Shown one piece after another: positions 1 through 16,501 of a stretch of DNA of 64,000 nucleotides (position 1 is its first letter; each line of letters begins with the position of its first letter). The notes beneath the pieces are model-generated. The model ran no database searches, was not told where the DNA came from, and saw only the letters and a program-made list of their open reading frames with translations. The translations under genes were made by a program, and so were the position numbers. Location of the stretch: assembly GCF_025947065.1 (NCBI RefSeq), contig NZ_CP109994.1:1798001-1862000 (forward strand), given 5' to 3'. This DNA is from Flavobacterium sp. N1736. GTDB lineage: Bacteria; Bacteroidota; Bacteroidia; Flavobacteriales; Flavobacteriaceae.

Positions 1-1
1 T

Positions 2-1189
2 GTTTTAATTCAGTTTGGACATAATGATGACGGGCCAATAAACGATAGTCTTCGCGCTCGCGGAACGATAAAAGGTATTGGTAATGAAACGCAGGAAATC
101 GATAATATCCTGACTAAAAAACATGAAATAGTTCATAGTTACGGCTGGTATATTGAGAAAATTGTCCGCGAAGCAAAATTAAAAGGAGCGATTCCGATTA
201 TTTGTTCTCCGATTCCGAGAAATGACTGGAAAAACGGAAAAGTGCCACGCAACGATACTTCATACGGATTATGGGCGAAGCAAATTGCAAATAAAGAGAA
301 GGTCACTTTTATTGATTTGAATAATAAAATGGCTCTTGAAATGGAAAAATTGGGTGAAACGAATGTAACGGGAACGTATTTCTATAAAAAAGATCATACG
401 CATACTTCTGCAAAAGGCGCTGTGCTTTCGGCTTCGGTGATTATTAGTGAAGTGAGAGAAAGCAAAAATTCGCTCAAAAAATATGTTTTAAAAGATCCGA
501 AAATTGTGCTTCCGTCAAAGAAAAAAGTCTTTTTAGTGGGAGATTCTACAATGGCGAATAATAAAGATGAAAATGCTGTTGGCTGGGGTGTCACTTTTCC
601 TATGTTTTGCGATACGACTAAAATTGAGGTAATTAACAAAGCCAGAGGCGGGAGAAGTACGAGAACTTTTGATCATGAAGGTCTTTGGGAGGAAGTTAAA
701 AACCAATTACAACCCGGAAATTTTGTCCTGATTCAGTTTGGTCATAACGACGCCGGAGCTGTTGATAAGGAAAAATTCAGAGGTTCATTGAAAGGTAACG
801 GAGATGAAATTCAAGAGGTTAAACTGTCCGACGGATCTAAAGAAACTGTTCATACTTTTGGCTGGTATATGAACAAATTTATCCGCGAAGCCAAAGAAAA
901 AGGCGCGATTGTAATTGTGCTGAGTCAGACGCCAAGAAACGAATGGACAAACGACAAGGTTGAAAGAAGAACGGATACGTACGGAAAATGGTCTAAAGAA
1001 GCTGCTGAAAAAGAAGGCGTTTTTTATATTGATTTGAATGAAATTGTGGCATTAAAATATGAAGCTTTAGGAAAAGAAAAAGTAAAGGCGTTTTTCCCAA
1101 AAGATCATACGCATACGGGTTTTGAAGGTGCAAAACTAAACGCACAAACCGTAGCTGAAAGTATTAAAAAACTAGGAGTTCAATTGTGA
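2..1189 (+). CDS. Tandem SGNH (CE12-type) rhamnogalacturonan acetylesterase, 5'-truncated
   Basis: Secreted-type esterase predicted to remove acetyl groups from rhamnogalacturonan. The gene starts before the window: the frame is open from base 2, so the in-frame GTG at 242 is internal. Two SGNH domains follow one another. The first lacks its nucleophile block but shows GHND (visible residues 6-9) and the C-terminal DHTH near residue 130. The second is complete, with GDSTMANN near 180 (Ser 182), the GGRST block, GHND near 247, and the Asp/His pair of DHTH at 368-371. Both belong to the family of the CE12 protein at 32288-33034. The gene lies in the pectin locus, convergent with the small H1-like gene. 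Substrate is inferred from family and neighbours. Confidence 0.88.
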   Translation, partial: VLIQFGHNDDGPINDSLRARGTIKGIGNETQEIDNILTKKHEIVHSYGWYIEKIVREAKLKGAIPIICSPIPRNDWKNGKVPRNDTSYGLWAKQIANKEKVTFIDLNNKMALEMEKLGETNVTGTYFYKKDHTHTSAKGAVLSASVIISEVRESKNSLKKYVLKDPKIVLPSKKKVFLVGDSTMANNKDENAVGWGVTFPMFCDTTKIEVINKARGGRSTRTFDHEGLWEEVKNQLQPGNFVLIQFGHNDAGAVDKEKFRGSLKGNGDEIQEVKLSDGSKETVHTFGWYMNKFIREAKEKGAIVIVLSQTPRNEWTNDKVERRTDTYGKWSKEAAEKEGVFYIDLNEIVALKYEALGKEKVKAFFPKDHTHTGFEGAKLNAQTVAESIKKLGVQL

Positions 1190-1823: not shown

Positions 1824-3152
1824 TTACTCTGTTAATTGTTTGTTTATATAGACATTTTTAAAGGTTACTCCGTTTATTAAGCTTTTATCTATATTGGTTT
1901 TGGTGGTTTCTATATTTAAATTTTCAAAAGTAAAATTTGACAAACGTACATTCGGGTCATTTTCAACTCCGTAAAAAGTATCACATTTCAACTCTATATT
2001 TTTCAAAGTGATATTGTCTCCGTAAGAAAGCGGAATATCAGGACGTCCTTTTAGATCAAAAAACTGTTTCCACGCAAATACAGCAAGTCCTGTTTTGGCT
2101 TCTCCTTTAATATCTTCGACTCTAATATATTCATATCGCTGTGGTGTATCGGGACGCATTTTAAGCCATAATAATCGTGATGCTCCATCTATTTTGCAGT
2201 TGCGCATAATGACATTTCTGTTATGGATGGATTCACTTCCGTTTGTTAAGGATGAATGACAAAAACCGAAATTACAGTCTTCTATGATAATATTGGCGTT
2301 TGGTCCGTTGTTTTTGTCCTGATCTGCATATGGGCCTTTTCCTCCTTTTAGGGCAATCGCATCATCGTTTACTGACATATAACAGCCTTTTACTAAAAAA
2401 TTGGTGCAAATATCTATATCAATCGCATCTGTACTTGGTGCTTTTACGCCAATATGTGGGGAGAAAATGTACAAATCGAGCATTTTTACATTGTTGCATT
2501 TATAAAAATGGTTTGTCCAAAAACCTGAATTTATCAGTTTTACATCTTGTAATTGCACGTTGTTCGAATTCCACACAAAAATTAATCTTGGTCTAGAAAC
2601 TTCGAGGTTGGTACATTTTGGGTTTTCTTTTCGTCTTTGCCAGAATGCTTCCCAATATTTTTTACCGTTTCCGTTGATGGTTCCTTTTCCGGAAATCGAA
2701 AAATGATCGACTCCGTAAGCATTTACCAAAGCCGGAAAATAATCCAGATTTTGTCCTTCCATTCGTGATGGCATAATTGGAAAATCGGCAATATTATCTG
2801 ATCCTTTTAAAACTCCGCCTTCTGAAACGTATAAAGCTGTTTTTGGTTTAAAAAATAAGGCACCGCTTAAATAAACACCTTTGGGAATTACAATTACGCC
2901 GCCGCCATTTGCAGCAGCTTTATCGATTACTTTTTGGATGGCGACGGTTTGAATTTTAGTGCTGTCTTTGCTTACGCCAAAATCTGTAATGATATATTGT
3001 TTGCCTAAATCTTTTAATTGGAGTTTCGTATAATCTTTAAACCAGTCTGAAATTGGTGATCCGTCCGGGAAAGTGTCGTTTTTGTAGTTTTGAGATATTA
3101 GCACTTGCGTGAAAGCGAAAATGCATATTATCGAGGTTAGAATGTTTTTCAT
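1824..3152 (-). CDS. GH28 family glycoside hydrolase (polygalacturonase-like)
   Basis: Secreted right-handed beta-helix enzyme of 442 residues, predicted to hydrolyse galacturonic acid links in pectin or rhamnogalacturonan. A Sec signal peptide spans about residues 1-20. GH28 signatures are STDAIDID (240-246) and NDDAIALK (262-269). A CHSSLTNGSES block (298-308) stands in place of GHG.SIGSE, and LWLKMRP (329-334) stands in place of the RIK motif. The catalytic Asp set is kept but the His and Lys motifs are divergent, so this is an unusual GH28 branch. It is the last gene of the leftward set starting at 7347, separated from the DUF4861 gene by a hairpin repeat. Exact linkage specificity is unknown. 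Confidence 0.88.
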   Translation of the reverse strand: MKNILTSIICIFAFTQVLISQNYKNDTFPDGSPISDWFKDYTKLQLKDLGKQYIITDFGVSKDSTKIQTVAIQKVIDKAAANGGGVIVIPKGVYLSGALFFKPKTALYVSEGGVLKGSDNIADFPIMPSRMEGQNLDYFPALVNAYGVDHFSISGKGTINGNGKKYWEAFWQRRKENPKCTNLEVSRPRLIFVWNSNNVQLQDVKLINSGFWTNHFYKCNNVKMLDLYIFSPHIGVKAPSTDAIDIDICTNFLVKGCYMSVNDDAIALKGGKGPYADQDKNNGPNANIIIEDCNFGFCHSSLTNGSESIHNRNVIMRNCKIDGASRLLWLKMRPDTPQRYEYIRVEDIKGEAKTGLAVFAWKQFFDLKGRPDIPLSYGDNITLKNIELKCDTFYGVENDPNVRLSNFTFENLNIETTKTNIDKSLINGVTFKNVYINKQLTE

Positions 3153-3182
3153 TTTTGGTTGGTGTTAGTGAGGTTGGTATTT

Positions 3183-3267
3183 GTCTTTGCGAGGAACGAA
3201 GCAATCACATTTGCTGAGTCACACTTTATGGTTTTGTTAGTGAGGTTGCTTCGTTCCTCGCAATGAC
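3183..3267. repeat. REP-like inverted repeat
   Basis: The arms at 3183-3206 and 3244-3267 are near-perfect reverse complements around a core GCGAGGAACGAAGC. The same element type recurs at 33095-33193. It sits between two genes of one leftward set and could stabilise or trim the mRNA. Confidence 0.75.
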
Positions 3268-3289
3268 GTGGTTTGTGGTTATTTTGTGC

Positions 3290-4573
3290 TTACTTTACCT
3301 CAACTTTAATTTTTGCTGAAAGCTGCTTCGCAATATTCGTCACGTAATTGGTAAAATAAGGGGAATCTTTAAAGTTTTTATCAGCGCTTAATTCCCATCC
3401 GGCAATTGGGTAATAACTAATTTGCTGTTTGTTTTTTACGTTTAATTTTATAAGATATGAATCTGTTAATTGTCCGGTTTTTGGTGCTTCGATATAGCCT
3501 TTATAGACATTTTTCGGAATTATTATAGCTGTTCCTAAAATCCATTGGCGTTCGTAGGTTAATTTATCGTGCTGAATAAAACATACAAAATCGCCTGAGT
3601 CAATTACTTGCAATGGGTTCTGGTTGTTTAGGTTAGAAAGTGCAATCAATAACATTTCGTTTCCTTTTAATCCGTTTAGAGATACGGTATTTTTATAACC
3701 GTACATTCCCGGCCAGATCGAAGCGGTTTCTTGTGCCTGATATTCGTTTCCGTCTATTTTCCAGTTATGGTAATTATAGCTTAAAACGGAGTTTACCGGA
3801 CCTTCACTGACGATTTTGAACGTCGTTTTTTCGATATTATTTACGGTATCGCTGGCGATAATTCCGAGTCTGTTGATTTTATTGTCTTTCAATAAGGCAA
3901 AACCGCCTAATCCGGCAGAATTTCCAACAGGAAAAATATCTCTTCCCCAATCGTACATTACGTGATAATTATCTTCAACGGCGCCTTTGCTGTTTATACC
4001 CACATCTTCGGGCGTGATTCCGGGTATTTTTTTCCCGAAAACATCTTTAGAATTTCTTCCGTCTAAATAATGTCTAAAACCAACTTTATCATTTTCCCAG
4101 CTTGGTCCGTCGGTTTGATATTTTTGATAGCCTAATTTTTTATGTACCTGATTTGCCATTAAAACTTCTTGCGTGTCCGGATGAACCGGTTTGTCTTTGG
4201 CTTCTCTTTTTCCGAATCGAACGCTTGTTTTCATTGGAAATTTAGGATCTTTTTTTGACCATTTTAAGGCTAACGTTTTGGTTTCATTTGGAGAAAAATC
4301 GGCAACTAAAAATAATTCATCCCATTTTCCATCTCCGTCAAGGTCATTTACCTGCGCCGGAATTGTATCTGTTTTATAAATTAAAATTGGATATTGACTG
4401 GCTTCGTCTTTAATCGAAAGCTGATTTCTTTTTATTGAAATTGCTTTTTGAGACAGTTCTAATTTGGAAGAATTCTTTAAAACAATTTTGTTTCCGGTTG
4501 CTTTTTGCTGTGCATTTATATTTGCAAAAACCATTGCTGTTACTGCAATTGACAGATAGAATTTAGTTTTCAT
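3290..4573 (-). CDS. DUF4861 family secreted protein
   Basis: About 427 residues. I prefer the ATG at 4571-4573, which gives a clean signal peptide (MKTKFYLSIAVTAMVF, cleavage after INA); a start at 4621 would add 16 Lys/Asn-rich residues. Family marks are DGDGKWDELF near the N-terminus, RHYLDGRNSKDVFGK, the YHVMYDWGRDIFPVG block, and WPGMYGY. A shorter paralogue lies at 41149-42114 in the second pectin locus. DUF4861 proteins are often found with pectin-degrading enzymes, but I know no firm biochemical role. The neighbours on both sides (GH28, propeller protein) support a role in processing rhamnogalacturonan fragments outside the cytoplasm. Confidence 0.82.
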   Translation of the reverse strand: MKTKFYLSIAVTAMVFANINAQQKATGNKIVLKNSSKLELSQKAISIKRNQLSIKDEASQYPILIYKTDTIPAQVNDLDGDGKWDELFLVADFSPNETKTLALKWSKKDPKFPMKTSVRFGKREAKDKPVHPDTQEVLMANQVHKKLGYQKYQTDGPSWENDKVGFRHYLDGRNSKDVFGKKIPGITPEDVGINSKGAVEDNYHVMYDWGRDIFPVGNSAGLGGFALLKDNKINRLGIIASDTVNNIEKTTFKIVSEGPVNSVLSYNYHNWKIDGNEYQAQETASIWPGMYGYKNTVSLNGLKGNEMLLIALSNLNNQNPLQVIDSGDFVCFIQHDKLTYERQWILGTAIIIPKNVYKGYIEAPKTGQLTDSYLIKLNVKNKQQISYYPIAGWELSADKNFKDSPYFTNYVTNIAKQLSAKIKVEVK

Positions 4574-4622
4574 TTTTTTTGTTTTTTTTATGCTGTTTGT
4601 TTTTTGTAACAATTTAATCATT

Positions 4623-5693
4623 TTATACTATTCTAAAAATAAAAGCCGACGCAGTTTCGTATTTTCCTCCCTGAGATGCAGTAAATAAATAGGTGGCTTT
4701 TCCGTTTTGAAACAATAACTGCGGTCGTTCGGCACGTCCATATCTATTTAAATGTTTTGGTGCTTCGGGCTGTTTTATATATTTATCCAATGGCTGATAT
4801 GCAATTGAAGGTTCGTTCCAATAAATACCGTCGTCAGAATCCATATAAAGCCCGTGATCGATTCCGAAAACGCCCATATCTCGGGCTAACATTTTAAATT
4901 TCTTGTTTTCGTACCACACAAAAGCGTCTTCGCATTGCTGGTTATTTCCCAGTTTAGAAAAATCAATTAATGGATTATTTTTATGTTTAATGTATGGTCC
5001 TTCAAGCGATTTTGAAATTGCCAATCCGTATTTTCTGTTTCCTTTTATGGGGAATTTTGGATGTACATAATTTTCTGTATCCAACGATTTATAATACAGC
5101 CAATATTCTCCGTTTGGATGTTTTAAAAAGGATGGATTTGTGGTTAAAAGATCATCCCATTCTCCTTTTTCTCCGGGTAATAATAAGGGTTTGTCGGGTC
5201 TTTTCCACGGACCGTAAAGTGAATCAGAAGTTGCTAAACCAATTCGTTTGGTGTCCATTTTTCCGTTGGAATTTCCCATAAAAAACAGGGCATATTTTCC
5301 ATCCACAAAATGAATACTTGGATTATGACAGGTTGTTGCATCCCAAAATCCTTCGCCACGCGGTGCCAAAATAGTACTTATATATTCGTACGGTCCTTCG
5401 GGTTTATCGGCAACGGCGTGTGCAATTTCTGAAGAATTAATCCAGCCGCTCATTCCTTTTGATTTTTTCCATCTTGAAAAAAAAACATGAATTTTGCCAT
5501 CAGGTCCTTCAATTGGACTGTTGCACCAAACATAATAATCTTCAAATTCAAGCGCACGACCAACGGGACGAAGTTTTTTTTCAAAATCTGAAAGCTTTGG
5601 TTCGTCTAAAAAATCTATGGCTTTCGCCGAAAACGGAAGACATAAAGCTAATAATGCAAGTGAATTTCCAACTATAAATTTTCTTCTGTTCAT
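4623..5693 (-). CDS. Five-bladed beta-propeller glycosidase-like protein (GH43-like)
   Basis: 356 residues. The N-terminus MNRRKFIVGNSLALLALC is a hydrophobic signal with twin Arg, resembling a Tat signal. The body shows repeated propeller phrases: VWCNSPIEGPDGKIHVFFSRW, TCHNPSIHFVDGKYALFFMG, TTNPSFLKHPNGEYWLYYK, and KPEGPYEY/GPWKRP blade loops. These resemble the GH43/GH32-like propeller fold. I cannot assign a CAZy family. It overlaps no gene and lies 49 bp before the DUF4861 start, in the same direction. It is probably a glycosidase for a side chain of pectin; substrate unknown. Confidence 0.72.
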   Translation of the reverse strand: MNRRKFIVGNSLALLALCLPFSAKAIDFLDEPKLSDFEKKLRPVGRALEFEDYYVWCNSPIEGPDGKIHVFFSRWKKSKGMSGWINSSEIAHAVADKPEGPYEYISTILAPRGEGFWDATTCHNPSIHFVDGKYALFFMGNSNGKMDTKRIGLATSDSLYGPWKRPDKPLLLPGEKGEWDDLLTTNPSFLKHPNGEYWLYYKSLDTENYVHPKFPIKGNRKYGLAISKSLEGPYIKHKNNPLIDFSKLGNNQQCEDAFVWYENKKFKMLARDMGVFGIDHGLYMDSDDGIYWNEPSIAYQPLDKYIKQPEAPKHLNRYGRAERPQLLFQNGKATYLFTASQGGKYETASAFIFRIV

Positions 5694-5741
5694 TTTTTAA
5701 TTTCAGATTTTAGATTTTAGATTCATTATGTTGATTTTTTT

Positions 5742-5809
5742 CACGCAGATTTGGCAGATTAAGCAGATTTTTTTTATTTTTTAATCTTTTAATCTTTTTA
5801 ATCTGTGGC
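5742..5809. repeat. Dispersed CAGATT repeat (copy a)
   Basis: A left half CGCAGATTTGGCAGATTAAG and a right half ending TAATCTGTGGC are separated by T-rich DNA and can pair as a long weak hairpin. Related copies lie at 36778, 41015, 51353, 58901 and 58982. Confidence 0.7.
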
Positions 5810-5814
5810 TATAT

Positions 5815-7347
5815 TTATTTTTTCTCTGTTTTATCAATCCAATCATCTGTTCTGAAAGGTGATGCGGGCAGGTTTTCAGTATTGAATAAATTGGGTTCCG
5901 GTACGGCTTTCCATGCAAAACGAACGGCTGCGGGATTTTTTACTTTTGAAGAGGAAACTACTATTGTTTTTCCTTCAATTTTGGCATTGGCAGGATAAAA
6001 AATCTGATCGTCTCCGGCAATTTCAAATTCTTTCAGCGTTTCTCCGTCTTTCTTCAAACCTGATTCGGCATAATCAAAAAACAATTGTGCTTTTTGATTT
6101 TTAATTTTCATGTGATTGTAAATGGGTCCTGAATACACTAATTTATTTTCGTTATACGTTTTGGCTCTTGCCAATAAAGCAAGGCGATGCCCAACGGTTT
6201 GTTTGTCTATTGGGTGAATATTGTTTGCGTCGCCAACATCTGTTGTAACAACCATTCCGCTATTGGTTATGGTTTTTAAGGACATTAATTGTGCTTCCCG
6301 AATGTCTGCATTTTGTCCTTTGTGAGGTGCAATTTGTACATAATAAAAAGGGAAATCACCTTGTTTCCAATCGTCTCTCCAATTTTTTACCATTGCCGGA
6401 AATAGTGTTCGGTACAAATTTGCTTGTCCGGAATTGCTTTCGCCCTGATACCAGATTACGCCTTTCATGGTGTAATTTATTAAAGGATAAAGCATCGCAT
6501 TATACAAAACATAGGAGGTTTTATTGGCTTCTTTCTTTGGCTTTTTTATTTCTGATTTTGCTGCATTTGCCGCGCTTGCGATTCGTTCATTTATTAAGGC
6601 TAAATAATAGGCTTCTAGTTTTTCCTGATATATTTTTTCGTTTTTGGCATCTTGCTGCAATATTGGCAAAAAAGAAACATCGCTTTCTAAAACATTTTGA
6701 GATGTCCACGCTTCTGCTTTTGTACCGCCCCACGAACTCGAAATTAATCCGATTGGGACGTTTAATTTTTGATATAATTCTCTCCCGAAAAAATAAGCTA
6801 CTGCCGAAAATGTATTGATACTTTCGGGCGAACATTTTTTCCATGAACCAATTACATCGTCAAGTGGCTTTGGTGATGCATTTGTTAAAACGGTAAACAA
6901 TCTGATGTTTGGGTAGGAAGCATTTTTAACTTCTTCCTGATAGTTTTTAACTCCGGTTTTCCAGGTTCCTTCTTCTTTTCCTACAGGAAAATACATGTTT
7001 GATTGTCCGGAACAAATCCAGACTTCACCAATTAAAATATTATTGAGTATAATTTTATTGGTTGCGGTAATGGTTATTGTATATGTTTTTTCGCTTCCTG
7101 TTGGCGTATCAAGAGTTGTTTTCCATGTTCCGTCGGGATTTGCAACGGTTTCAATTGTGGTAGTTAACCATTCTGGATGAATGCTTATTTTTTCGTTTGG
7201 AGACGCCCATCCCCATACATTGACTTTTGCGTTTTGCTGTAAAACCATATTATCGCTTACCAATGCAGGCAATTTAACCTGAGCGGTAAGGGAAATTTTC
7301 ACAAACAAAACAACTAAAAACAAGGGCAACTTTTTTAAGTAAATCAT
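5815..7347 (-). CDS. Sialate O-acetylesterase-type carbohydrate esterase (SASA family)
   Basis: Secreted 510-residue esterase. The signal peptide covers residues 1-22 (cleavage after LTA). A beta-sandwich-like segment precedes the SGNH/SASA domain. Catalytic marks are GQSN with Ser 116, SSWGGTKAEAW near 204-214, WYQGESN near 299-305, and the C-terminal DVGDANNIHP block with His 378. The family deacetylates sialic acid, xylan or pectic sugars. In this locus acetylated rhamnogalacturonan is the likely substrate (inference). It is the first gene of a leftward set and has its own promoter with the CAGGA box at 7404-7420. Confidence 0.87.
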   Translation of the reverse strand: MIYLKKLPLFLVVLFVKISLTAQVKLPALVSDNMVLQQNAKVNVWGWASPNEKISIHPEWLTTTIETVANPDGTWKTTLDTPTGSEKTYTITITATNKIILNNILIGEVWICSGQSNMYFPVGKEEGTWKTGVKNYQEEVKNASYPNIRLFTVLTNASPKPLDDVIGSWKKCSPESINTFSAVAYFFGRELYQKLNVPIGLISSSWGGTKAEAWTSQNVLESDVSFLPILQQDAKNEKIYQEKLEAYYLALINERIASAANAAKSEIKKPKKEANKTSYVLYNAMLYPLINYTMKGVIWYQGESNSGQANLYRTLFPAMVKNWRDDWKQGDFPFYYVQIAPHKGQNADIREAQLMSLKTITNSGMVVTTDVGDANNIHPIDKQTVGHRLALLARAKTYNENKLVYSGPIYNHMKIKNQKAQLFFDYAESGLKKDGETLKEFEIAGDDQIFYPANAKIEGKTIVVSSSKVKNPAAVRFAWKAVPEPNLFNTENLPASPFRTDDWIDKTEKK

Positions 7348-7375: not shown

Positions 7376-7420
7376 TAAATTTAAAATAGTTAAGTCCGAA
7401 AAGCATCCTGTGCTTTCCTG
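7376..7420 (-). promoter_or_regulatory. Promoter of the acetylesterase set with CAGGA direct-repeat box
   Basis: Read on the minus strand, the box CAGGAAAGCACAGGATG (7404-7420) is followed by exactly 20 nt and then TAAATTTA (7376-7383), a -7 box with one change from TAnnTTTG. The start codon is 28 nt beyond. The same box and spacing occur at two other promoters of the locus, at 12236-12280 and 12484-12528. Confidence 0.7.
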
Positions 7421-7443
7421 TTTCTTTTGAATTGGAAAATGCA

Positions 7444-7472
7444 AAAAAGCTGTCAAAAAAAGACAGCTTTTT
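7444..7472 (-). terminator. Terminator of susC-susD
   Basis: A perfect 11-bp stem AAAAAGCTGTC/GACAGCTTTTT with a 7-nt loop, 44 bp past the susD stop. T-rich on both strands. Confidence 0.85.
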
Positions 7473-7515
7473 CAAAAAAAACAAAATATAAAAAAAGATT
7501 GGGGGCAAAGTTTTT

Positions 7516-9051
7516 TTAGTCGTAACCAATATTTTGATCATAAAGTCCCGGAACTGCCAGTATTTCCTGTAACGGAATTGGATAAATCAAGGCGTTATTA
7601 TCTATAGTTCTAATTTTTCCATCGGTATCTTCAACGGCTTTCCAGGCGTTCATTGTTTCAACTGCTTTTCCAGATCTGATTAGATCAAACCATCTTGTTC
7701 CTTCTGAGAAAAATTCTTTTCTTCTTTCGGCAAATAATTGATCTAAAGTAATATTTGCAGCATCTGGAGTTATTCCGGCTCTTGTTCTTACTTTATTTAC
7801 AATGTCATCAACATCGGCCTGCGAGCCTCCGCCTCCGTGAAGTGTACATTCTGCCATCATCATTAATACATCTGTGTAGCGTATTACCATAAAATCTACG
7901 CCCCAGTCTTCACGACCGTTTCCGTATCTTGTTGGGTCTATATATTTTTTGAAAACCGGAAGTGTGTAACTTCCTTTATATGTTCCTGTTGCTACTGTAT
8001 AACTTGTTGCAATACCAAAAGTTTTTCTAAGATCTGTTGCAGCAAACTTATTTACAAGGTCTGTCGATACGGGTTTTGCTTCTAAAGATCCTTGTGCCGA
8101 TAAATTAACTGAGGCAAAATAAGGTTCGTAGCCTACTTCTACCATAAAATTGCCTCCAACAGAGCTTGGAAGACTTTGTGTATATGGAATCGTTAATACG
8201 TTTTCTTTATTTGTCAGTCCTTCAATTTTAAAAATATTCGCATAATCAGTACCAAAAGTATATAGTCCGCTTAGTTTGATATCGTTTAATTGCTGATAGG
8301 CTTTATCCCATTCGTTTAAGCCAAGTGTAGCGCCGTCAATTCCGTAAGTTGGGCTTGAGCGTGTCATATAAACAAGACCTAATAATGCTTTTGCTCCATA
8401 TTTTGAAACTCTTCCGTAGTTTGCAGCATCGTATGCAGGAAGAAGATCCGGAATAGCTTGTTCAAGGTCGGAGATAATAAAATCGTAAACATCTTTAACG
8501 GGTGTTCTTTTAACATTTGCTACTTCTGCAGCTGTCATTGTTCTGTCGATTAACGGTACTCTTCCAAACCATCTGATTAAATCAAAGTAGCAAAATGCTC
8601 TAAGAAAACGAGCTTCGGCAACCATTGAAGTTTTATCGGCAGGATTTGTAAAAATAAGGTCTCCTTTTTCGGATAGTTTTTCGAGCAATTGATTTGCTTT
8701 ATAAATCGCATTGTAATTACTTGTGTATGCTTCTTTTACATAGGTATTGGTGCTGATATTGGTATAAAAGCTGTTGATTCCCTCCCATTCTCTTGATGCT
8801 GTTGTGGTTGCATACAAATTATCTGATCTGGTTTCGCTTAAATTTAAAACTCTGTTGGCATAACCATACGTTCCCGCACCATGAAAGGCAACGGAATAGG
8901 TAGCATTTCTTGCCTGAACAAAATCAGACTGTGTAAGATAAAAATTCTCTATTGTTCGTTGTGAAAGTGGCAATTGAGTCAATTCATCTTCGCAGCATGT
9001 AAAGGCAAATAATGCCAAAACGCCTGCAGCTAAAGAGATATATTTTTTCAT
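7516..9051 (-). CDS. SusD/RagB family outer-membrane glycan-binding lipoprotein
   Basis: 511 residues. The lipoprotein signal ends in the lipobox-like FTCC (Cys near residue 19-20). RagB/SusD features include the N-terminal helical repeat region (YSVAFHGAG, AEARFLRAFCYFDLIRWFG near 145-165), FAERRKEFFSEGTRWFDLIRSGKA near the C-terminus, and the terminal QNIGYD, a variant of the family's QNPGY tail. It binds oligosaccharides at the cell surface and hands them to the SusC partner. It starts 6 bp after the susC stop, so the two are co-translated. The ligand is inferred to be a rhamnogalacturonan fragment. Confidence 0.95.
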   Translation of the reverse strand: MKKYISLAAGVLALFAFTCCEDELTQLPLSQRTIENFYLTQSDFVQARNATYSVAFHGAGTYGYANRVLNLSETRSDNLYATTTASREWEGINSFYTNISTNTYVKEAYTSNYNAIYKANQLLEKLSEKGDLIFTNPADKTSMVAEARFLRAFCYFDLIRWFGRVPLIDRTMTAAEVANVKRTPVKDVYDFIISDLEQAIPDLLPAYDAANYGRVSKYGAKALLGLVYMTRSSPTYGIDGATLGLNEWDKAYQQLNDIKLSGLYTFGTDYANIFKIEGLTNKENVLTIPYTQSLPSSVGGNFMVEVGYEPYFASVNLSAQGSLEAKPVSTDLVNKFAATDLRKTFGIATSYTVATGTYKGSYTLPVFKKYIDPTRYGNGREDWGVDFMVIRYTDVLMMMAECTLHGGGGSQADVDDIVNKVRTRAGITPDAANITLDQLFAERRKEFFSEGTRWFDLIRSGKAVETMNAWKAVEDTDGKIRTIDNNALIYPIPLQEILAVPGLYDQNIGYD

Positions 9052-9057
9052 TTTATT

Positions 9058-12000
9058 TTAATTAAAATTAATGTTAAGACCTATAACAAGTGACTTTGCA
9101 AGTGGAGCGCCTCCGTAATCTACCGGCACAGAAAAATCACTATTAGAACTTGCCGAAGTATTTACAGCTTCGGGATTGTAACCTACCTTATATTTATTCC
9201 AGTAGAACCAGTTTTCTCCTGTAATGTAAAGTCTTGCATTGTCAATTCTTTTTACGCCTTTTAATGCCTGTCTCAAATTATAACCAATTGAAATACTTCT
9301 GATACTTACATAATCTGATTTATACAACCAATCTGAGTTTGCCTGATATCCAAAAGAAGTTCTCCAGTTTCCTCTTGTGGCAGGATCTACATCTAATGAA
9401 TTTTCTACAGATCCCATTCCGGTACGGTCAATCGCTCTTCCTGTTAATCCGTAAACTGTTCCTCCGTTTTGACCCTGTACTAAAACGCTTAAATCAATAT
9501 CTTTATATTTAAAATTATTGGTGATTCCCCACGTGTATTTTGGAGTAGGATTTCCTAAATCTACACGATCTTCTGAGTTTATTTTTTTGTCTCCGTTTTG
9601 ATCAATATATCTTGGATCTCCTAAAACGAGTTTATTTCCCCCAATAGTAGTTCCGCCTTTATCAATATCAGCCTGACTTACAACGCCATTTTGCTGTAAT
9701 CCGAAGATGGTATACATGGGTTTGCCAACTTCTAATTTTATAAACGGAACGCCTCCATCATAAGCATTACTAATTTCAATTTTAGACTGACCTGTTCCTA
9801 ATGCCAAAACTTTATTTTCGTTATGACTGATATTTGCTGATGTTCTCCACTCGAAATTATTTGTTTTAACGTTTATGGAATTCAATTCAAATTCCCATCC
9901 TTTGTTTTCAACTTCTCCAATATTGGTTAAATAATTTTGAAATCCACTTGCGGCAAGAACCGGAACGCGCAATAATAATTCGCTGTTATTTTTTTTGTAC
10001 ACCTCAAATGTTCCTGTAATTCTGTTTTGAAGAAATCCGAAATCTACACCATAATCAATACTTTTTGATTCTTCCCAGTGCAAGTCAGGATTTGGTATTG
10101 TAGATGCTCCAAGTCCGCCGGCAGATGCACCGCCAATAGAATAATTAAATTGTCCCAAAAGTGCATACGGACCGTAAGAAGCAATGTTATTACTTCCGTT
10201 TGTACCTGCACTGGCTCTTAATTTTAAATCACTTAGCCAATTTACTTCTTTCAAAAATTCTTCTTGTTTTACTCTCCATCCTAACGAAAGTGAAGAGAAT
10301 ACGCCCCAACGTCTGTCAGTTCCAAATTTTGATGAACCGTCGCGTCTAACACTCGCTGCTAAAATGTATTTTTCTTTATAATTGTATTGCAATCTTGCAA
10401 AATAAGAAAGCAATGTATTTTTTTCGGCAGTTGTTGAACCTAATGATCCGGTTGGTAAAGTTTCGATACCGGTATCCTGATAAAGCGCTCCCGATGAAAG
10501 TGACGATTTTGTAATTTCATATTTATTAAAAGACTGTCCTAAAAGCACATTAAAATGATGATCTCCTAATGACAAATCGTAATTTAAAGTATTTTCATTT
10601 ACTAAATTTTGTCTTCTGTACGTGTTATAAGCTCCTCTAATACTTGCAATAACATCGTTTGGCGTGTAACTTTCGTTAACGTTATCTGCGTTATCAAAAT
10701 TAATTGTGCTTTTAAATGTTAATCCTTTAACAAATTCATAGCTCGCATAAGTAGAAATTAAAGTTCTGTTCATTGAATTTTTCCCTGTTCTGGCTAACGC
10801 ATTCAACATATTGGTTGTACTGCTTCCCCATGCATACCTTGTGGTGTATTTTTCTCCGGCAGCATTTGATGTGCTTTCAAAAACAGGAGTTGCTGTTAAA
10901 GCTTTAAATAATGTATTATCTTTTCCTTCAACACCCGGATCATTTTTTACAGAATAAGAAGGCGCTAAATTGATTCCCATCTTGAATTTTTCTGATAATT
11001 TAACATCAACATTTGCTCTTGCAGAAAACAAAGTATAATCAGTTCCTACAATATATCCTGTATTTTTTTGATAATTGGCAGACACATAATAGTTAACCGT
11101 TTCTGTAGCTCCCGAAGCTGATAATTGATAATTGCTAAATTCTCCTGTACGGAAAACTTTATCCTGCCAATCGATATAATCCAGTCCCGGATGTCCCGGC
11201 ATATCCCATCTGTCATCATACAAATAGGTAAAATATCTTGAATTTGCAGTTGTAAGCGGCGCTGTTGGATTTACTGCATTATAAGCCGCAATACGCTGCG
11301 CCGTATTTTGATTGGCAGATGCACCTGCAATTCCAGATCCAACCCATTGCGCATCAATCATGGTTTTAGCTCTTCCAATCCATTGTTCTGCCGATAACAT
11401 ATCAACTCTGTTGGCTTCTTTATTAACTCCTCCGTAAGTATTAAAAGTGAATGTTGGTTTCCCTAATTTTCCTTTTTTTGTTGTAATAAGAACTACTCCG
11501 TTTGATGCTCTTGATCCATAAATTGCAGCTGCTGCCGCATCTTTTAAAACTTCAATCGAAGCTACATCATTTGGGTTCATATTATCCAGCGGACTACCGT
11601 TTGAAAATCCTCCGTTTACATTTGATCCTTCGGTATTAATTGGAAATCCGTCTACTACATACAACGGTTCGTTTCCTGCCGTGATAGAACCTGCTCCACG
11701 AATTTCGATACTAAAAGGCTGTCCCGGTAAACCTGTAGTTTGTTTTACACGAACTCCGGCAACCTGCCCAATTAAACCCTGATCGATTCTTGAAATAGGT
11801 CTTTCAGTAAAATTTTCTGTTTTAATTCCCGAAATTGCTCCTGTGGTTAATTTTTTCTTTTGAGTTCCGTACCCAATAACTACAACTTCATTTAAGTTAG
11901 AACTTTCTGTTTCTAAAGTAACATTGTAGGTATTTGAAGCACCAACTTTTAGTTCTTTTGTCACAAATCCGATAAAAGAAAAAACAAGCGTTTCTCCTTC

Positions 12001-12201
12001 AGATACCTTGACACTGTACTTTCCATCAAAATCTGTACTGGAAGCTCTATTGGTTCCCTTAACAAATACATTTACTCCCGGTATCGATAGTTTCGCCGGA
12101 TCAGTAACTGCTCCTGAAACTACTTTTTCTTGCGCATAACCCGTAGAATGGAATAATCCAAACAGAGCTATAATCAGCAAAAGTTTAATGTTATTTTTCA
12201 T
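9058..12201 (-). CDS. SusC/RagA family TonB-dependent outer-membrane transporter
   Basis: 1047 residues. Signal peptide to about 23 (GYA). Then a carboxypeptidase-like regulatory domain (VSGAVTDPAKLSIPGVNVFVKG, about 28-105), a plug domain beginning VIGYGTQKKKLTTG (about 108) with the SusC marks QGLIGQVAGVRV and IEVLKDAAAAAIYGSRA, and a 22-strand-type barrel to the end. It imports oligosaccharides using TonB energy. It heads the susC-susD pair. Promoter at 12236-12280 with a CAGGA box. The only complete SusC/D pair in the window. Confidence 0.96.
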   Translation of the reverse strand: MKNNIKLLLIIALFGLFHSTGYAQEKVVSGAVTDPAKLSIPGVNVFVKGTNRASSTDFDGKYSVKVSEGETLVFSFIGFVTKELKVGASNTYNVTLETESSNLNEVVVIGYGTQKKKLTTGAISGIKTENFTERPISRIDQGLIGQVAGVRVKQTTGLPGQPFSIEIRGAGSITAGNEPLYVVDGFPINTEGSNVNGGFSNGSPLDNMNPNDVASIEVLKDAAAAAIYGSRASNGVVLITTKKGKLGKPTFTFNTYGGVNKEANRVDMLSAEQWIGRAKTMIDAQWVGSGIAGASANQNTAQRIAAYNAVNPTAPLTTANSRYFTYLYDDRWDMPGHPGLDYIDWQDKVFRTGEFSNYQLSASGATETVNYYVSANYQKNTGYIVGTDYTLFSARANVDVKLSEKFKMGINLAPSYSVKNDPGVEGKDNTLFKALTATPVFESTSNAAGEKYTTRYAWGSSTTNMLNALARTGKNSMNRTLISTYASYEFVKGLTFKSTINFDNADNVNESYTPNDVIASIRGAYNTYRRQNLVNENTLNYDLSLGDHHFNVLLGQSFNKYEITKSSLSSGALYQDTGIETLPTGSLGSTTAEKNTLLSYFARLQYNYKEKYILAASVRRDGSSKFGTDRRWGVFSSLSLGWRVKQEEFLKEVNWLSDLKLRASAGTNGSNNIASYGPYALLGQFNYSIGGASAGGLGASTIPNPDLHWEESKSIDYGVDFGFLQNRITGTFEVYKKNNSELLLRVPVLAASGFQNYLTNIGEVENKGWEFELNSINVKTNNFEWRTSANISHNENKVLALGTGQSKIEISNAYDGGVPFIKLEVGKPMYTIFGLQQNGVVSQADIDKGGTTIGGNKLVLGDPRYIDQNGDKKINSEDRVDLGNPTPKYTWGITNNFKYKDIDLSVLVQGQNGGTVYGLTGRAIDRTGMGSVENSLDVDPATRGNWRTSFGYQANSDWLYKSDYVSIRSISIGYNLRQALKGVKRIDNARLYITGENWFYWNKYKVGYNPEAVNTSASSNSDFSVPVDYGGAPLAKSLVIGLNINFN

Positions 12202-12235
12202 AAAAAGTTTGGTTTGGTTAATTAATTAGTTAAAC

Positions 12236-12280
12236 CAAATTTATTTAGAACCAAACCCCACACCATCCTGTAGTATCCTG
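12236..12280 (-). promoter_or_regulatory. susC promoter with CAGGA direct-repeat box
   Basis: Minus-strand reading: CAGGATACTACAGGATG (12264-12280), then 20 nt, then TAAATTTG (12236-12243), a perfect match to TAnnTTTG. The two CAGGAT half-sites are 10 bp apart, so they lie on one face of the helix, upstream of the usual -33 position. This is where an activator would bind. The regulator is not in the window. Confidence 0.78.
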
Positions 12281-12483
12281 TTAAATATCAATATCTTATA
12301 TTTTTACTTAACCTTTTTTTAACTAAAACCCAATATAAGTGACTGATTTACAATGCGAAAAATATAAATATCATATTAAAAATTTTATTGAATTATTTTT
12401 TCACTATACATATTTTTATAGTCTTTATAATAAGAAAATGTAAAAATATTAACCAATTTTAAGATTATTTAATATTTTAAAAA

Positions 12484-12528
12484 CAGGACGCTACAGGATA
12501 GCAATTTCAGGAAGGACTTTTACTTTTA
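12484..12528 (+). promoter_or_regulatory. GH106-GH105 promoter with CAGGA direct-repeat box
   Basis: Plus-strand reading: CAGGACGCTACAGGATA (12484-12500), then 20 nt, then TACTTTTA (12521-12528), matching TAnnTTTR. The start codon follows 31 nt later. The rest of the divergent gap (12202-12559) is very AT-rich and holds nothing else I can support. Confidence 0.75.
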
Positions 12529-12559: not shown

Positions 12560-15361
12560 ATGAGACGAATCAAAACCGGTTTCTTTATTATATTTTGTGC
12601 TTTATATGCTTGCTGTGCTTTTGCGCAAAAAGAAGCCGTTTCTCCATGGCCAAAATCAATTAACATCAATCAGCCGTGGGCACGTTGGTGGTGGATGGGA
12701 AGTGCTGTAGACAAACCGAACTTAAAGAAAAGCCTTTTAGATTTTCATAATGCCGGAATTGGCGGTGTAGAAATTACGCCTATCTATGGCGTAAAAGGTG
12801 AAGAAAATAATTTTATTGATTATCTGTCTCCTAAATGGCTGGAAATGTTAGATTATACGATTCATGTTTCAGACAGTCTTAATATGCAGGTTGATATGGT
12901 TTTAGGAACGGGCTGGCCTTACGGCGGTTCTCATGTTACTTTGCCAAATGCAGCGACCAAGTTGATTGTAGAAAAATACCAGCTTAAAAAAAATGAAACA
13001 ATCGACAAAAACATAGCGGTTGACAGTAATAAAGAAAAAATCCCTGCCGAACTTTTATATGTTGTGGCTTACGGAAATGACGGAACATTTGTAAACTTAA
13101 CAGATCAGGTAAAAAATAAAAATATCAAATTAAATGATAAAGGAATTGAGGGAAATCATATCTCAATTCCAAATCAATTAGAGGCAAATAAATTAAAATG
13201 GAAGGCTCAAAAAGCAGATTATACTATTTATGCCGTTTTTAGCGGAAAAACCGGGCAACAGGTAAAAAGAGCCGCTCCGGGCGGAAGCGGATATACACTG
13301 GATCATTATTCTGAAAAAGCTTTAAATGCTTATGTCGTTCCTTTTAATACTGCTTTTAAAGGCAGGGAAGGTAAAATTAGAGCTATTTTTAATGATAGTT
13401 ATGAGGTTTACGGAACTGATTTTACGCCTGACTTTTTTGAAGAATTTAAAAACCTGAGAGGTTACGATCTGAAAAAAGAAATGCCGCTTTTGCTGAATGA
13501 AACCGATAATGAAATTGGAAATCGAATAAGAAGTGATTACAAACAAACGATTGCCGATTTATTGCTGAATAAATTTGACAAACCCTGGACGGCGTGGGCA
13601 AATTCTAAAAACTTTAAAACTAAACTTCAGGCGCATGGTTCTCCCGGAAACCTGATTGATTTGTACGCTTCTGCGGATATTCCGGAATGCGAAACTTTTG
13701 GTTCTATGCCTTTTGATATTCCGGGTTTACGACGTGAGAAAGAAGATATTCGTGAAGGCGATGCTGATCCTGTTATGCTGAAATTTTCATCATCGGCAGC
13801 ACATATTTCCGGAAAGAATCTGGTTTCATCAGAAACTTTTACCTGGTTACGCGAGCATTTTAAAACAGCTTTATCGCAATGCAAACCAGAAGTTGAAGAT
13901 TTGATGCTAAATGGCGTAAATCATGTTTTTCTTCATGGTTCAACTTATTCGCCAACAAGAGCAGTTTGGCCGGGCTGGCAATTTTATGCTTCGGTAAATT
14001 TTAATGCCAATAATAGTATTTGGGAAGATGCTCCTGCCCTTTTCTCTTATATTGCAAACTGTCAATCGTTATTGCAACAAGGAAAACCAGACAATGAAAT
14101 TTTGCTTTACTGGCCTATTTTTGATACTTGGGGTGAATACCAAAAAGGTAATTTATTCTTTCAGTTTAAAATACATTCTTTATCAGAATGGCTATATGGA
14201 ACTTCATTTTATGATACCACCAAAAACCTGATGAAGAAAGGATATGGAGTTGATTTTATATCGGATAATTTTCTTGCTCAGGCAAAAGTAATCGACGGAA
14301 AAATTAGTTTAGGCAATGTAACTTTCAAATCCTTAATTATTCCTTCGTGCAAAAAAATGCCGCTTGCTACTTTACAAAAAATCATATCGTTACAAAAAAA
14401 CGGTGCCACTATTATTTTTGAAGGATTGCCGGAATCTGTTCCGGGTTTTAATAATTATAAACAACAGGAAGAAGAACTTAAATCTATTTTAAATGCAAAT
14501 AGTGAGTTGGTAAAACCGGTATCGGATATTTTTAAAGCCTTAGAAAACAAACAAATATATCCGGAAACACTTGTAAATACAGGTTTAAAATATATTAGAA
14601 GAAATATTGACGGAGAAAAAACTTATTATTTGGTAAACCACACTCCAAAAACCATTGATGAATTTATTCCGATAGAAATTGGCAATAAAGAAGTTATTAT
14701 ACTTGATCCTTTAACCAGAGAATCAGGAAATGCAATTGTAAAAAAATCAGCTAATAAAACTCTTGTAAAAATCAAAATAGAACCGGGACAATCTTATTTT
14801 TTAAAAACAGAAAATACGGCTTCACAAAAAAAATGGGTTTATTATGAATCAGGTTCTGAATCAATTCTGTTAAAAGGAAACTGGCAACTTACTTTTGATA
14901 AAGGCGGACCAAAATTACCGTCCAATGCGACGATTTCTACTTTAGAATCATGGACAAAACTAAGCCCGGAAGCAGTAGCTTTTTCAGGTTCTGCAACGTA
15001 TACTTTGCAATTTGAAAATCCAAACAGTAAAATAATAAATTGGAGTTTAAATCTGGGAGATGTTCGCGAAAGTGCCAAAGTATGGGTTAATGATGAATTT
15101 GTTGGAACCGCATGGTCTGTTCCGTATAAACTGAATATCAAAAACTTAAAAAATGGCAAAAACACTTTAAAAATTCAGGTTACTAATCTTTCTGCAAACA
15201 GAATTCGGGATAAAGAATTAAAAGGTGAAGAATGGAAAATCTTTTACGAAATAAATATGGTGGACAAAGATTATAAAAAATTTGATGCCACAAAATGGAA
15301 TCCGATGCCTTCAGGATTATTAGGACCAATTAGTATTACACCATTAAAACAACAAAATTAA
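12560..15361 (+). CDS. GH106 family alpha-L-rhamnosidase
   Basis: Secreted 933-residue enzyme, predicted to release L-rhamnose from rhamnogalacturonan oligosaccharides. Signal peptide to about 22 (CAFA). The N-terminal block ARWWWMGSAVDKPNLKKSL with GIGGVEITPIYGV, followed by LGTGWPYGG, is the GH106 signature. The core contains HLHGSTYSPTRAVWPGW-like phrases and EDIREGDADP. The C-terminal part (about 770-920) is a galactose-binding-like jelly roll (WSLNLGDVRESAKVWVNDEFVG). First gene of a rightward pair; GH105 follows after 15 bp. Controlled by the CAGGA box at 12484. Confidence 0.9.
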   Translation: MRRIKTGFFIIFCALYACCAFAQKEAVSPWPKSININQPWARWWWMGSAVDKPNLKKSLLDFHNAGIGGVEITPIYGVKGEENNFIDYLSPKWLEMLDYTIHVSDSLNMQVDMVLGTGWPYGGSHVTLPNAATKLIVEKYQLKKNETIDKNIAVDSNKEKIPAELLYVVAYGNDGTFVNLTDQVKNKNIKLNDKGIEGNHISIPNQLEANKLKWKAQKADYTIYAVFSGKTGQQVKRAAPGGSGYTLDHYSEKALNAYVVPFNTAFKGREGKIRAIFNDSYEVYGTDFTPDFFEEFKNLRGYDLKKEMPLLLNETDNEIGNRIRSDYKQTIADLLLNKFDKPWTAWANSKNFKTKLQAHGSPGNLIDLYASADIPECETFGSMPFDIPGLRREKEDIREGDADPVMLKFSSSAAHISGKNLVSSETFTWLREHFKTALSQCKPEVEDLMLNGVNHVFLHGSTYSPTRAVWPGWQFYASVNFNANNSIWEDAPALFSYIANCQSLLQQGKPDNEILLYWPIFDTWGEYQKGNLFFQFKIHSLSEWLYGTSFYDTTKNLMKKGYGVDFISDNFLAQAKVIDGKISLGNVTFKSLIIPSCKKMPLATLQKIISLQKNGATIIFEGLPESVPGFNNYKQQEEELKSILNANSELVKPVSDIFKALENKQIYPETLVNTGLKYIRRNIDGEKTYYLVNHTPKTIDEFIPIEIGNKEVIILDPLTRESGNAIVKKSANKTLVKIKIEPGQSYFLKTENTASQKKWVYYESGSESILLKGNWQLTFDKGGPKLPSNATISTLESWTKLSPEAVAFSGSATYTLQFENPNSKIINWSLNLGDVRESAKVWVNDEFVGTAWSVPYKLNIKNLKNGKNTLKIQVTNLSANRIRDKELKGEEWKIFYEINMVDKDYKKFDATKWNPMPSGLLGPISITPLKQQN

Positions 15362-15376
15362 TTTAACCAAATTAAA

Positions 15377-16501
15377 ATGAGAAAATTACTTTTATGCTTC
15401 ATGATATACTTTTTGTATGCAAGTACAACAAGCGCACAACAGCCATTTGATAAAAAATTAGTGCTAAAACAAATGATATTGGCCAATGATTATTTCATGC
15501 AAAAATGGCCGGAAACAGGCAAAACGATCATTACTAATAAAGAACGCCCAAGCAATATATGGACACGCGGTGTTTATTATGAAGGATTAATGGCTTTGCA
15601 TGAAATTTTCCCGAAAGAGGCCTATTATGATTATGCTTTTTCATGGTCTGAATTTCATAAATGGGGATTTAATGGCGGAAATACGACTCGTAATGCCGAC
15701 AATTATTGCGCAGCTCAAACCTATATTGACTTATACAATTTAGAACCGGACGCCAAAAAATTAAAAAATACAATTGCGAATACGAATATGCTTTTAAACA
15801 CGCCGCAACTGGATGACTGGTCGTGGATTGACGCTATACAAATGGGAATGCCGGTTTTTGCTAAAATGGGGGTTTTAGAAAAAGACAATCGTTATTTTGA
15901 AAAAATGTATGAAATGTATATGTACACCAGAAACAAACATGGCGATCATGGTTTATTTAACACAAAAGATGGTTTATGGTGGCGTGATGCCGATTTTGAT
16001 CCTCCATATAAAGAACCAAATGGAGAAGATTGTTACTGGAGCCGAGGTAATGGCTGGGTAATTGCTGCACTTGCAAAAGTGCTTACTATAATTCCTGAAA
16101 ATGCACCGCACAGGGAACAATATATAAAAGATTTAAAATTAATGGCTGCTGCTCTGGTTCCTATTCAAAGAGCGGACGGATTTTGGAATGCAAGTTTGCA
16201 CGATCCAACTAATTATGGCGGAAAAGAACTTTCAGGAACAGCATTGTTTGTTTATGGAATGGCTTACGGCATTAACAGCGGAATTTTAAAAAAAGAGACT
16301 TATTTGCCTGTTATTCAAAAAGCATGGAATGCCATGACAACTGAAAGTTTACAATCTAACGGGTTTTTAGGGTATCTGCAATCAACAGGAAAAGAACCTA
16401 AAGACGGACAACCGGTAACAATAGATAAGATTCCGGATTTTGAAGATTATGGATTAGGCTGTTTTTTACTGGCTGGTTCAGAAATTTATAAAATGAAATA
16501 A
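15377..16501 (+). CDS. GH105 unsaturated rhamnogalacturonyl hydrolase
   Basis: 374 residues with a signal peptide (cleavage near TSA/QQ, 20-21). It cleaves the unsaturated galacturonyl residue left by pectin or rhamnogalacturonan lyases. GH105/GH88 six-hairpin barrel motifs: IWTRGVYYEGLMALHEIFP (61-79), NADNYCAAQTY (106-116), DDWSWIDAIQMGMPV (146-160, catalytic-type Asp 152) and WSRGNGWVIAALAKV. Same transcript as GH106. It is only distantly similar to the two GH105 paralogues at 38534-40979 and resembles the YteR type more. With GH106 it would act alternately on the two sugars of the rhamnogalacturonan backbone. Confidence 0.92.
   Translation: MRKLLLCFMIYFLYASTTSAQQPFDKKLVLKQMILANDYFMQKWPETGKTIITNKERPSNIWTRGVYYEGLMALHEIFPKEAYYDYAFSWSEFHKWGFNGGNTTRNADNYCAAQTYIDLYNLEPDAKKLKNTIANTNMLLNTPQLDDWSWIDAIQMGMPVFAKMGVLEKDNRYFEKMYEMYMYTRNKHGDHGLFNTKDGLWWRDADFDPPYKEPNGEDCYWSRGNGWVIAALAKVLTIIPENAPHREQYIKDLKLMAAALVPIQRADGFWNASLHDPTNYGGKELSGTALFVYGMAYGINSGILKKETYLPVIQKAWNAMTTESLQSNGFLGYLQSTGKEPKDGQPVTIDKIPDFEDYGLGCFLLAGSEIYKMK

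Follow-up and report, generated by a model that had tools for sequence, protein, structure and literature searches.

A 64,000-nt stretch of the Flavobacterium sp. N1736 chromosome (positions 1798001-1862000 of 5,106,030 bases; the window, in what follows) carries three copies of the direct repeat CAGGA-N5-CAGGAT, each at the same distance from a promoter -7 element of the form TAnnTTTR, and the question raised by this locus is which genes share the box, which signal it serves and which protein reads it. The initial annotation proposed a three-promoter pectin regulon under a hybrid two-component system (HTCS) or AraC-type activator encoded outside the window. Our analysis indicates that the box is probably (at a rough probability of 0.75) the operator of an L-rhamnose regulon activated by a RhaR-type GntR protein. 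The features concerned are the following; coordinates are those of the window unless marked as genome.

7402..7420, minus strand: box 1, two 10-bp units CAGGAAAGCA CAGGATGCT, CAGGA-N5-CAGGAT at 7405-7420, matrix score 25.8
7376-7383, minus strand: -7 element of box 1, TAAATTTA, 21 nt past CAGGAT
12262..12280, minus strand: box 2, units CAGGATACTA CAGGATGGT, CAGGA-N5-CAGGAT at 12265-12280
12236-12243, minus strand: -7 element of box 2, TAAATTTG
12484..12502, plus strand: box 3, units CAGGACGCTA CAGGATAGC, CAGGA-N5-CAGGAT at 12484-12499
12521-12528, plus strand: -7 element of box 3, TACTTTTA
1824..7347, minus strand: gene set after box 1, with SASA esterase 5815-7347, GH43-like gene 4623-5693, DUF4861 gene 3290-4621 and GH28 gene 1824-3152
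7516..12201, minus strand: genes after box 2, susC 9058-12201 and susD 7516-9051
12560..16501, plus strand: genes after box 3, GH106 12560-15361 and a GH88/105-type gene 15377-16501
38878-38893, minus strand: fourth bare CAGGA-N5-CAGGAT, within the open reading frame (ORF) 38534-39754, without a -7 element
1..1189, plus strand: 3' part of a 492-residue double GDSL esterase, its start and box lying just outside the window
genome C1:1773895-1774935: GntR-domain candidate regulator of 346 residues, divergent from rhaT, with a box between the two

The full pattern CAGGA-N5-CAGGAT-N21-TAnnTTTR matched three times in the window against 0.00 expected from 100 dinucleotide shuffles, and the bare CAGGA-N5-CAGGAT four times against 0.01 expected. 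All three boxes of the initial annotation are thus real, although their ends had been placed off by one, and the gap from CAGGAT to the -7 element is 21 nt, as in the N21 of its own pattern, and not the 20 nt given there in words; its assignment of the esterase set, susC-susD and the GH106 and GH88/105-type genes was correct. The statement that no further copy exists in the window holds for the box together with its -7 element but not for the bare box, the fourth copy of which (38878-38893) we judge to be a chance occurrence outside the regulon because it lies inside an ORF and lacks a -7 element. The four genes after box 1 are inferred to form one operon. The box of the double GDSL esterase gene stands at genome 1797473-1797517, that is, 528-484 nt ahead of window base 1; the leader of this gene downstream of the box (locus L038) contains GTTTCAG in tandem repeat.

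Across the genome, the exact full pattern gave five matches and CAGGA-N5-CAGGA without the -7 requirement gave 25, with none for either in the reversed control. If offsets to the -7 element are measured from where the second CAGGA ends, none of the 17 copies situated in open frames has TAnnTTTR at offset 22, and six of the eight intergenic copies do; the seventh (L009) has TAAATTAG at this offset and the eighth (L006) no -7 element by the TAnnTTTR rule. Allowing up to three mismatches returned 43 genome matches (6 in the control), from which 16 intergenic boxes were kept, so that the regulon comprises at least 16 boxes and not three promoters. These are spread over 2.8 Mb of the chromosome, share the consensus CAGGATAGTA-CAGGATAGT and are built as a 10-bp tandem repeat of the unit CAGGAYASTA. 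As regards many matches in unrelated places, which the initial annotation had named as a refuting result, 17 of the 27 matches that were not kept were looked at individually; 16 of these fall within ORFs (15 in open frames of 157-725 codons and match 3235047 inside an 828-residue ORF) and one, at 1365719 (L049), is intergenic and off consensus.

Among the kept boxes, one precedes rhaT, which is followed by rhaEW (rhamnulose-phosphate aldolase/dehydrogenase), an isomerase-like protein, an FGGY kinase and LutA/LutB-like genes, and another precedes a second rhaEW; the two rhaEW copies are L063:14475-16673, directly after its box, and L061:12300-14441, after the box-bearing rhaT. Further boxes stand before a GH141-type protein with a rhamnose mutarotase domain, a GH78-like rhamnosidase, a GH28, two GDSL esterases, two SASA esterases, the susC of the window and those of two further loci, the GH106, a BNR protein, a 924-residue secreted protein with a middle part resembling a PDB pectate lyase (E 7.8e-45) and, at genome 682737, a gene split over frames (L058:7807-10262) into a pectate-lyase-like piece and a fibronectin-III piece. 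The rhaT and rhaEW products score above the NCBIfam cut-offs; the best models for the isomerase-like protein are those of L-rhamnose isomerase, with scores below their cut-offs. SusC and BNR proteins alone carry no information on rhamnose; the second susC adjoins a rhamnogalacturonan lyase gene, and the third, like the BNR gene, sits at 3.22-3.29 Mb in a cluster that also encodes a BT_1020-like protein, a GH106 and two more GH78 enzymes and appears, from the BT_1020-like protein, to be a rhamnogalacturonan-II locus. The common denominator of the box genes is L-rhamnose and, because the boxes include those of the L-rhamnose transporter and the catabolic operon, the system is best described as an L-rhamnose regulon, in place of the pectin theme first proposed.

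Alignment of orthologous promoters, set beforehand as a test, found box and spacing retained in relatives. Among 31 loci checked, eight hold susC and GH106 in divergent orientation, namely seven relatives and the window's own region (L003), and in all seven relatives both boxes and both -7 elements are kept while the spacers differ. Two cautions apply to this count: the loci had been chosen for holding at least one box match, and the susC is only 38-40% identical to that of the window (over the matched piece) in five of the seven, with GH106 at 79-83%. Arrays of four 10-bp tandem units were also seen, in Ulvibacterium (L202:18768-18806) and in genome G473, which lies outside the order (L261:9575-9613 and L262:12713-12751).

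A regulator encoded outside the window had been anticipated, and its best candidate is the GntR-domain protein, whose gene lies about 23 kb before the window. Its N-terminus is a GntR winged helix (PF00392, 1.2e-12) matching those of AraR and YvoA in PDB by sequence, and its C-terminus is a LacI/periplasmic-binding-type sugar domain, with a predicted fold (computed for a 99%-identical orthologue) like that of LacI-family proteins and the AraR effector domain. Both domains, winged helix and sugar domain, are thus those of the AraR subfamily; as to the operator, the associated box is a direct repeat and a palindrome-like block occurs at the GntR protein's own gene. In 150 Flavobacterium genomes, with orthologues defined by a score over 440 bits and box matches by up to one mismatch, the orthologue is present in 32, and 31 of these contain at least two boxes, against 2 of the 118 genomes without it (at least one box in 9/118); the reversed pattern gave five matches in all for the same set. 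In 26/30 orthologue loci the box separates the GntR gene from rhaT, and it lies within the stretch taken around the GntR gene in 79 of 80 named loci, the exception at that cut-off being L204.

The association extends beyond the genus. In 25 stretches, 23 around GntR homologues in other genera or families and two around paralogues of 44-45% identity, rhaEW occurs in 19, preceded immediately by a box above the cut-offs in 18 and by a weaker one in the nineteenth (L204). In other genera and families the GntR homologue neighbours the arrangement box-rhaEW-rhaI-rhaK, and down to an identity of 46% GntR orthologues keep the box although the genes around them change; paralogues of 59% (G066) and 48% (G008) also sit within 0.5 kb of a box. 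In three loci (L203, L205, L237) the GntR gene is tandem-duplicated, at 64-75% identity to the query. A blind test with a refined box pattern over 295 genomes of the class found matches in five, one of which, G473, was thus picked by the box alone; it encodes one GntR orthologue (47% identity) adjoining an FGGY kinase gene 38% identical to rhaK, and its boxes precede rhaT, a susC and a gene beside another susC.

The distance between box and -7 element was measured with a matrix restricted to the 19 box positions, so that the -7 element was not selected for. The scan covered the neighbourhood of the GntR gene in the 80 named loci, 20 stretches around homologues (20 genomes, some of which may share species with the named loci) and our own regions, and identical boxes were counted once. 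It found 91 distinct intergenic boxes (15 own, 76 other), and 81 of them have at offset 22 a -7 element matching in at least 5 of 6 positions; the element is perfect at that offset in 41, and in 4 a perfect one occurs elsewhere between offsets 8 and 44. When grouped by dissimilar spacers, 32/36 groups agree on offset 22, as do 22/26 outside this genome and 19/22 unlike any own box; these non-own counts are the fair ones, since the matrix was built from own boxes chosen with the -7 pattern. Reversed sequences gave 0 matches against 113 in the 80 named loci, 0 for the 20 homologue stretches, and 3 for three G473 stretches at a lower cut-off of 13. The fixed geometry of the shared box is therefore borne out, and it persists in related promoters.

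If the -7 element is taken to lie at -12 to -5 (PMC9723704, PMC6847099), the two box units span about -49 to -31, with fixed spacing to the core promoter and overlap of the -35/-33 region of the predicted starts, as for a class-II-type activator. Spacing as rigid as this would be expected of a bound protein in contact with RNA polymerase; repression does not call for it. The single-base-pair spacing is the main argument favouring activation, as the initial annotation had also read the geometry. The last -7 base (position -5) is A rather than G in 8/16 own promoters, and because G is nearly invariant at this position in F. johnsoniae promoters (PMC6847099) this suggests that the box promoters may be weak. 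The missing -33 TTTG was dropped as an argument, this element being weak in F. johnsoniae generally (PMC6847099).

In the scheme that we propose, the RhaR-type GntR protein would bind the tandem CAGGAYASTA units through its winged helices, respond to L-rhamnose or a catabolic product thereof and, placed at about -49 to -31, contact RNA polymerase and activate weak sigma-A promoters of the TAnnTTTR type. Rhamnose uptake and breakdown would then be switched on together with the outer-membrane and secreted machinery that frees rhamnose from rhamnogalacturonan. We infer binding, ligand and activation; the genomes themselves show the box and its spacing, the genes that follow it, its conservation and its association with the GntR gene by co-occurrence and neighbourhood. 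Several observations weigh against the scheme. The Fisher p of 1.3e-28 for at least two boxes against the GntR orthologue comes from a statistic that ignores phylogeny. G057 has the orthologue and no match at one mismatch (its rhaT box has more mismatches), and G062 and G094 have two matches each without the orthologue, those of G094 both being one-mismatch matches. No strong box lies within 1.5 kb at L123-L126, which hold orthologues of about 70% identity, nor any box within 1.5 kb of the G473 orthologue or within about 10 kb of the two 44-45% paralogues (L253, L254). AraR, of the same architecture, is named a repressor in PDB entries, and a conserved, partly palindromic block on the GntR side of the rhaT-GntR region in Flavobacterium might be the protein's real site.

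The AraR entries lend some weight to the alternative that the same GntR protein on the same box is a repressor, which at -49 to -31 would block RNA polymerase until rhamnose released it, as do the reported DeoR-type RhaR sites, direct repeats with a period of 10-11 bp, for which the experimentally shown member is a repressor (PMC3870299). We consider this unlikely, given that repression does not need the single-base-pair spacing of 81/91 distinct boxes and that half of the own promoters have A in place of the nearly invariant G at -5 (PMC6847099). The palindromic block, as expected for many GntR sites (PMC4494728), would instead fit another regulator on the box, with the GntR protein binding only upstream of its own gene. 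This is improbable: in 17 loci the AATCGATT-like block near the GntR gene, tried as a general operator, occurs at no more than one mismatch in 20 only upstream of GntR in L061 and L148; it lies upstream of GntR in L157 with five mismatches, has 4-5 mismatches at unrelated places elsewhere, and was not found at GntR in other genera (L202-L206) even at five mismatches. The box, on the other hand, accompanies GntR orthologues through changing contexts, and direct-repeat sites are reported for the GntR proteins FarR, NagQ, NanR, GabR and TauR, some of them activators (PMC4494728, PMC5320631).

That an HTCS or AraC-type activator reads the box, the GntR gene standing beside rhamnose genes by chance, is very improbable, although HTCS are the predicted regulators of pectin loci in Bacteroides (PMC3878776) and the box at genome 2034451 follows the end of an AraC gene by 19 nt. 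This AraC gene and one HTCS (the closest one to the cluster, whose first box is about 37 kb away) were tested, and both were set aside since they track the box less well over the 150 genomes than does the GntR-type protein. The AraC orthologue (E below 1e-160) is present in nine genomes, seven of them among the 33 box-positive ones, with looser matches in 44; the HTCS, at a threshold of 83% identity, is present in 24 genomes, of which 20 are box-positive, and is thus absent from 13/33; lowering the threshold to 52% gives 38 genomes, and fewer than two boxes were found in 16 of these. These HTCS counts rest on four scored candidates per genome. The two proteins tested are a small part of the 48 HTH_18 matches in the genome of the window, and among three other HTCS-size HTH_18 proteins one turned up solely as a 34% paralogue. 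HTCS tandem sites lie about 21 bp apart, and the reported motifs of both HTCS and AraC-type rhamnose regulators have this periodicity (PMC3870299, PMC3878776), whereas the period of the box is 10 bp. There is practically no chance that the repeat is a coincidence of composition or coding, as the bare copy at 38878-38893 and the 17/25 genome copies in ORFs could suggest; this is already contradicted by the excess of boxes with -7 elements in the window, by the reversed controls and by the retention of box and -7 element while spacers change.

The proposed L-rhamnose regulon under a GntR activator shares features with several known systems. The DeoR-type RhaR regulons (Rodionova et al. 2013, PMC3870299) also serve L-rhamnose and have an operator of two imperfect direct repeats; that protein, however, is of another family, in contrast to the GntR winged helix and LacI-type domain found here. 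The available text of the same paper reports rhaEW in Bacteroidetes and has no mention of "flavobact" or "gntr". The AraC-type RhaR of Bacteroides (PMC3870299, PMC3878776) is an activator of rhamnose genes in this phylum. HTCS_Rgu of B. thetaiotaomicron is predicted to act at direct repeats before pectin-locus genes, but its tandem sites average 21 bp apart, as against a 10-bp period, a spread of 2.8 Mb and the inclusion of rhamnose catabolic genes in our case (PMC3878776). TauR and GabR, of the MocR subfamily of GntR, are activators with a winged helix on direct repeats (TauR unit CTGGACYTAA) but have an aminotransferase-like sensor domain and other ligands (PMC4494728, PMC5320631). Growth of Flavobacterium on pectin induces SusC/D proteins, with nothing tied to boxes in the available text (PMC8056085). 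The AraR of Bacillus subtilis is alike in architecture, its winged helix by sequence and its effector domain by fold, and differs in being a named repressor, while the sites here repeat directly in tandem, at a constant distance before the -7 element. AraR operators are usually palindromic. Taken by analogy, the system appears to work like a rhamnose regulon with a class-II-type activator.

Two conserved blocks besides the box lie near the box promoters. The AGCAATCGATTTCG-like one upstream of the GntR gene in Flavobacterium (L061:15692 region), with a palindromic centre in some species, is a candidate auto-operator. A TTGTAAATCA block at window 12340-12360, 73 nt upstream of the susC box, is kept in the seven aligned relatives, with one base changed in two of them, and the box at genome 1788937 has a one-mismatch copy 74 nt upstream of it; a search at the other 14 boxes gave no exact copy, and two with one mismatch. 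It is possibly the site of a second regulator.

Neither a GntR-type rhamnose regulator nor the box was reported for Flavobacteriia in the literature searched, which left most subscription papers and all bioRxiv preprints outside its scope. There is an even chance, in our estimation, that a GntR/LacI hybrid of a type known from repressors on palindromes serves in Flavobacteriia as a direct activator, reading two to four tandem 10-bp repeats whose distance to the unusual downstream -7 element of the phylum is fixed to the base pair, and tying cytoplasmic rhamnose catabolism to dispersed rhamnogalacturonan loci. Activators defined by position are, to our knowledge, few for the Bacteroidota sigma factor, and a direct handle is offered here by a conserved box, spaced to the single base pair, together with a named candidate for its regulator. 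Rhamnogalacturonan loci and unknown secreted proteins could also be assigned by the box across flavobacteria, and the box promoter is a candidate rhamnose-responsive promoter for the genus.

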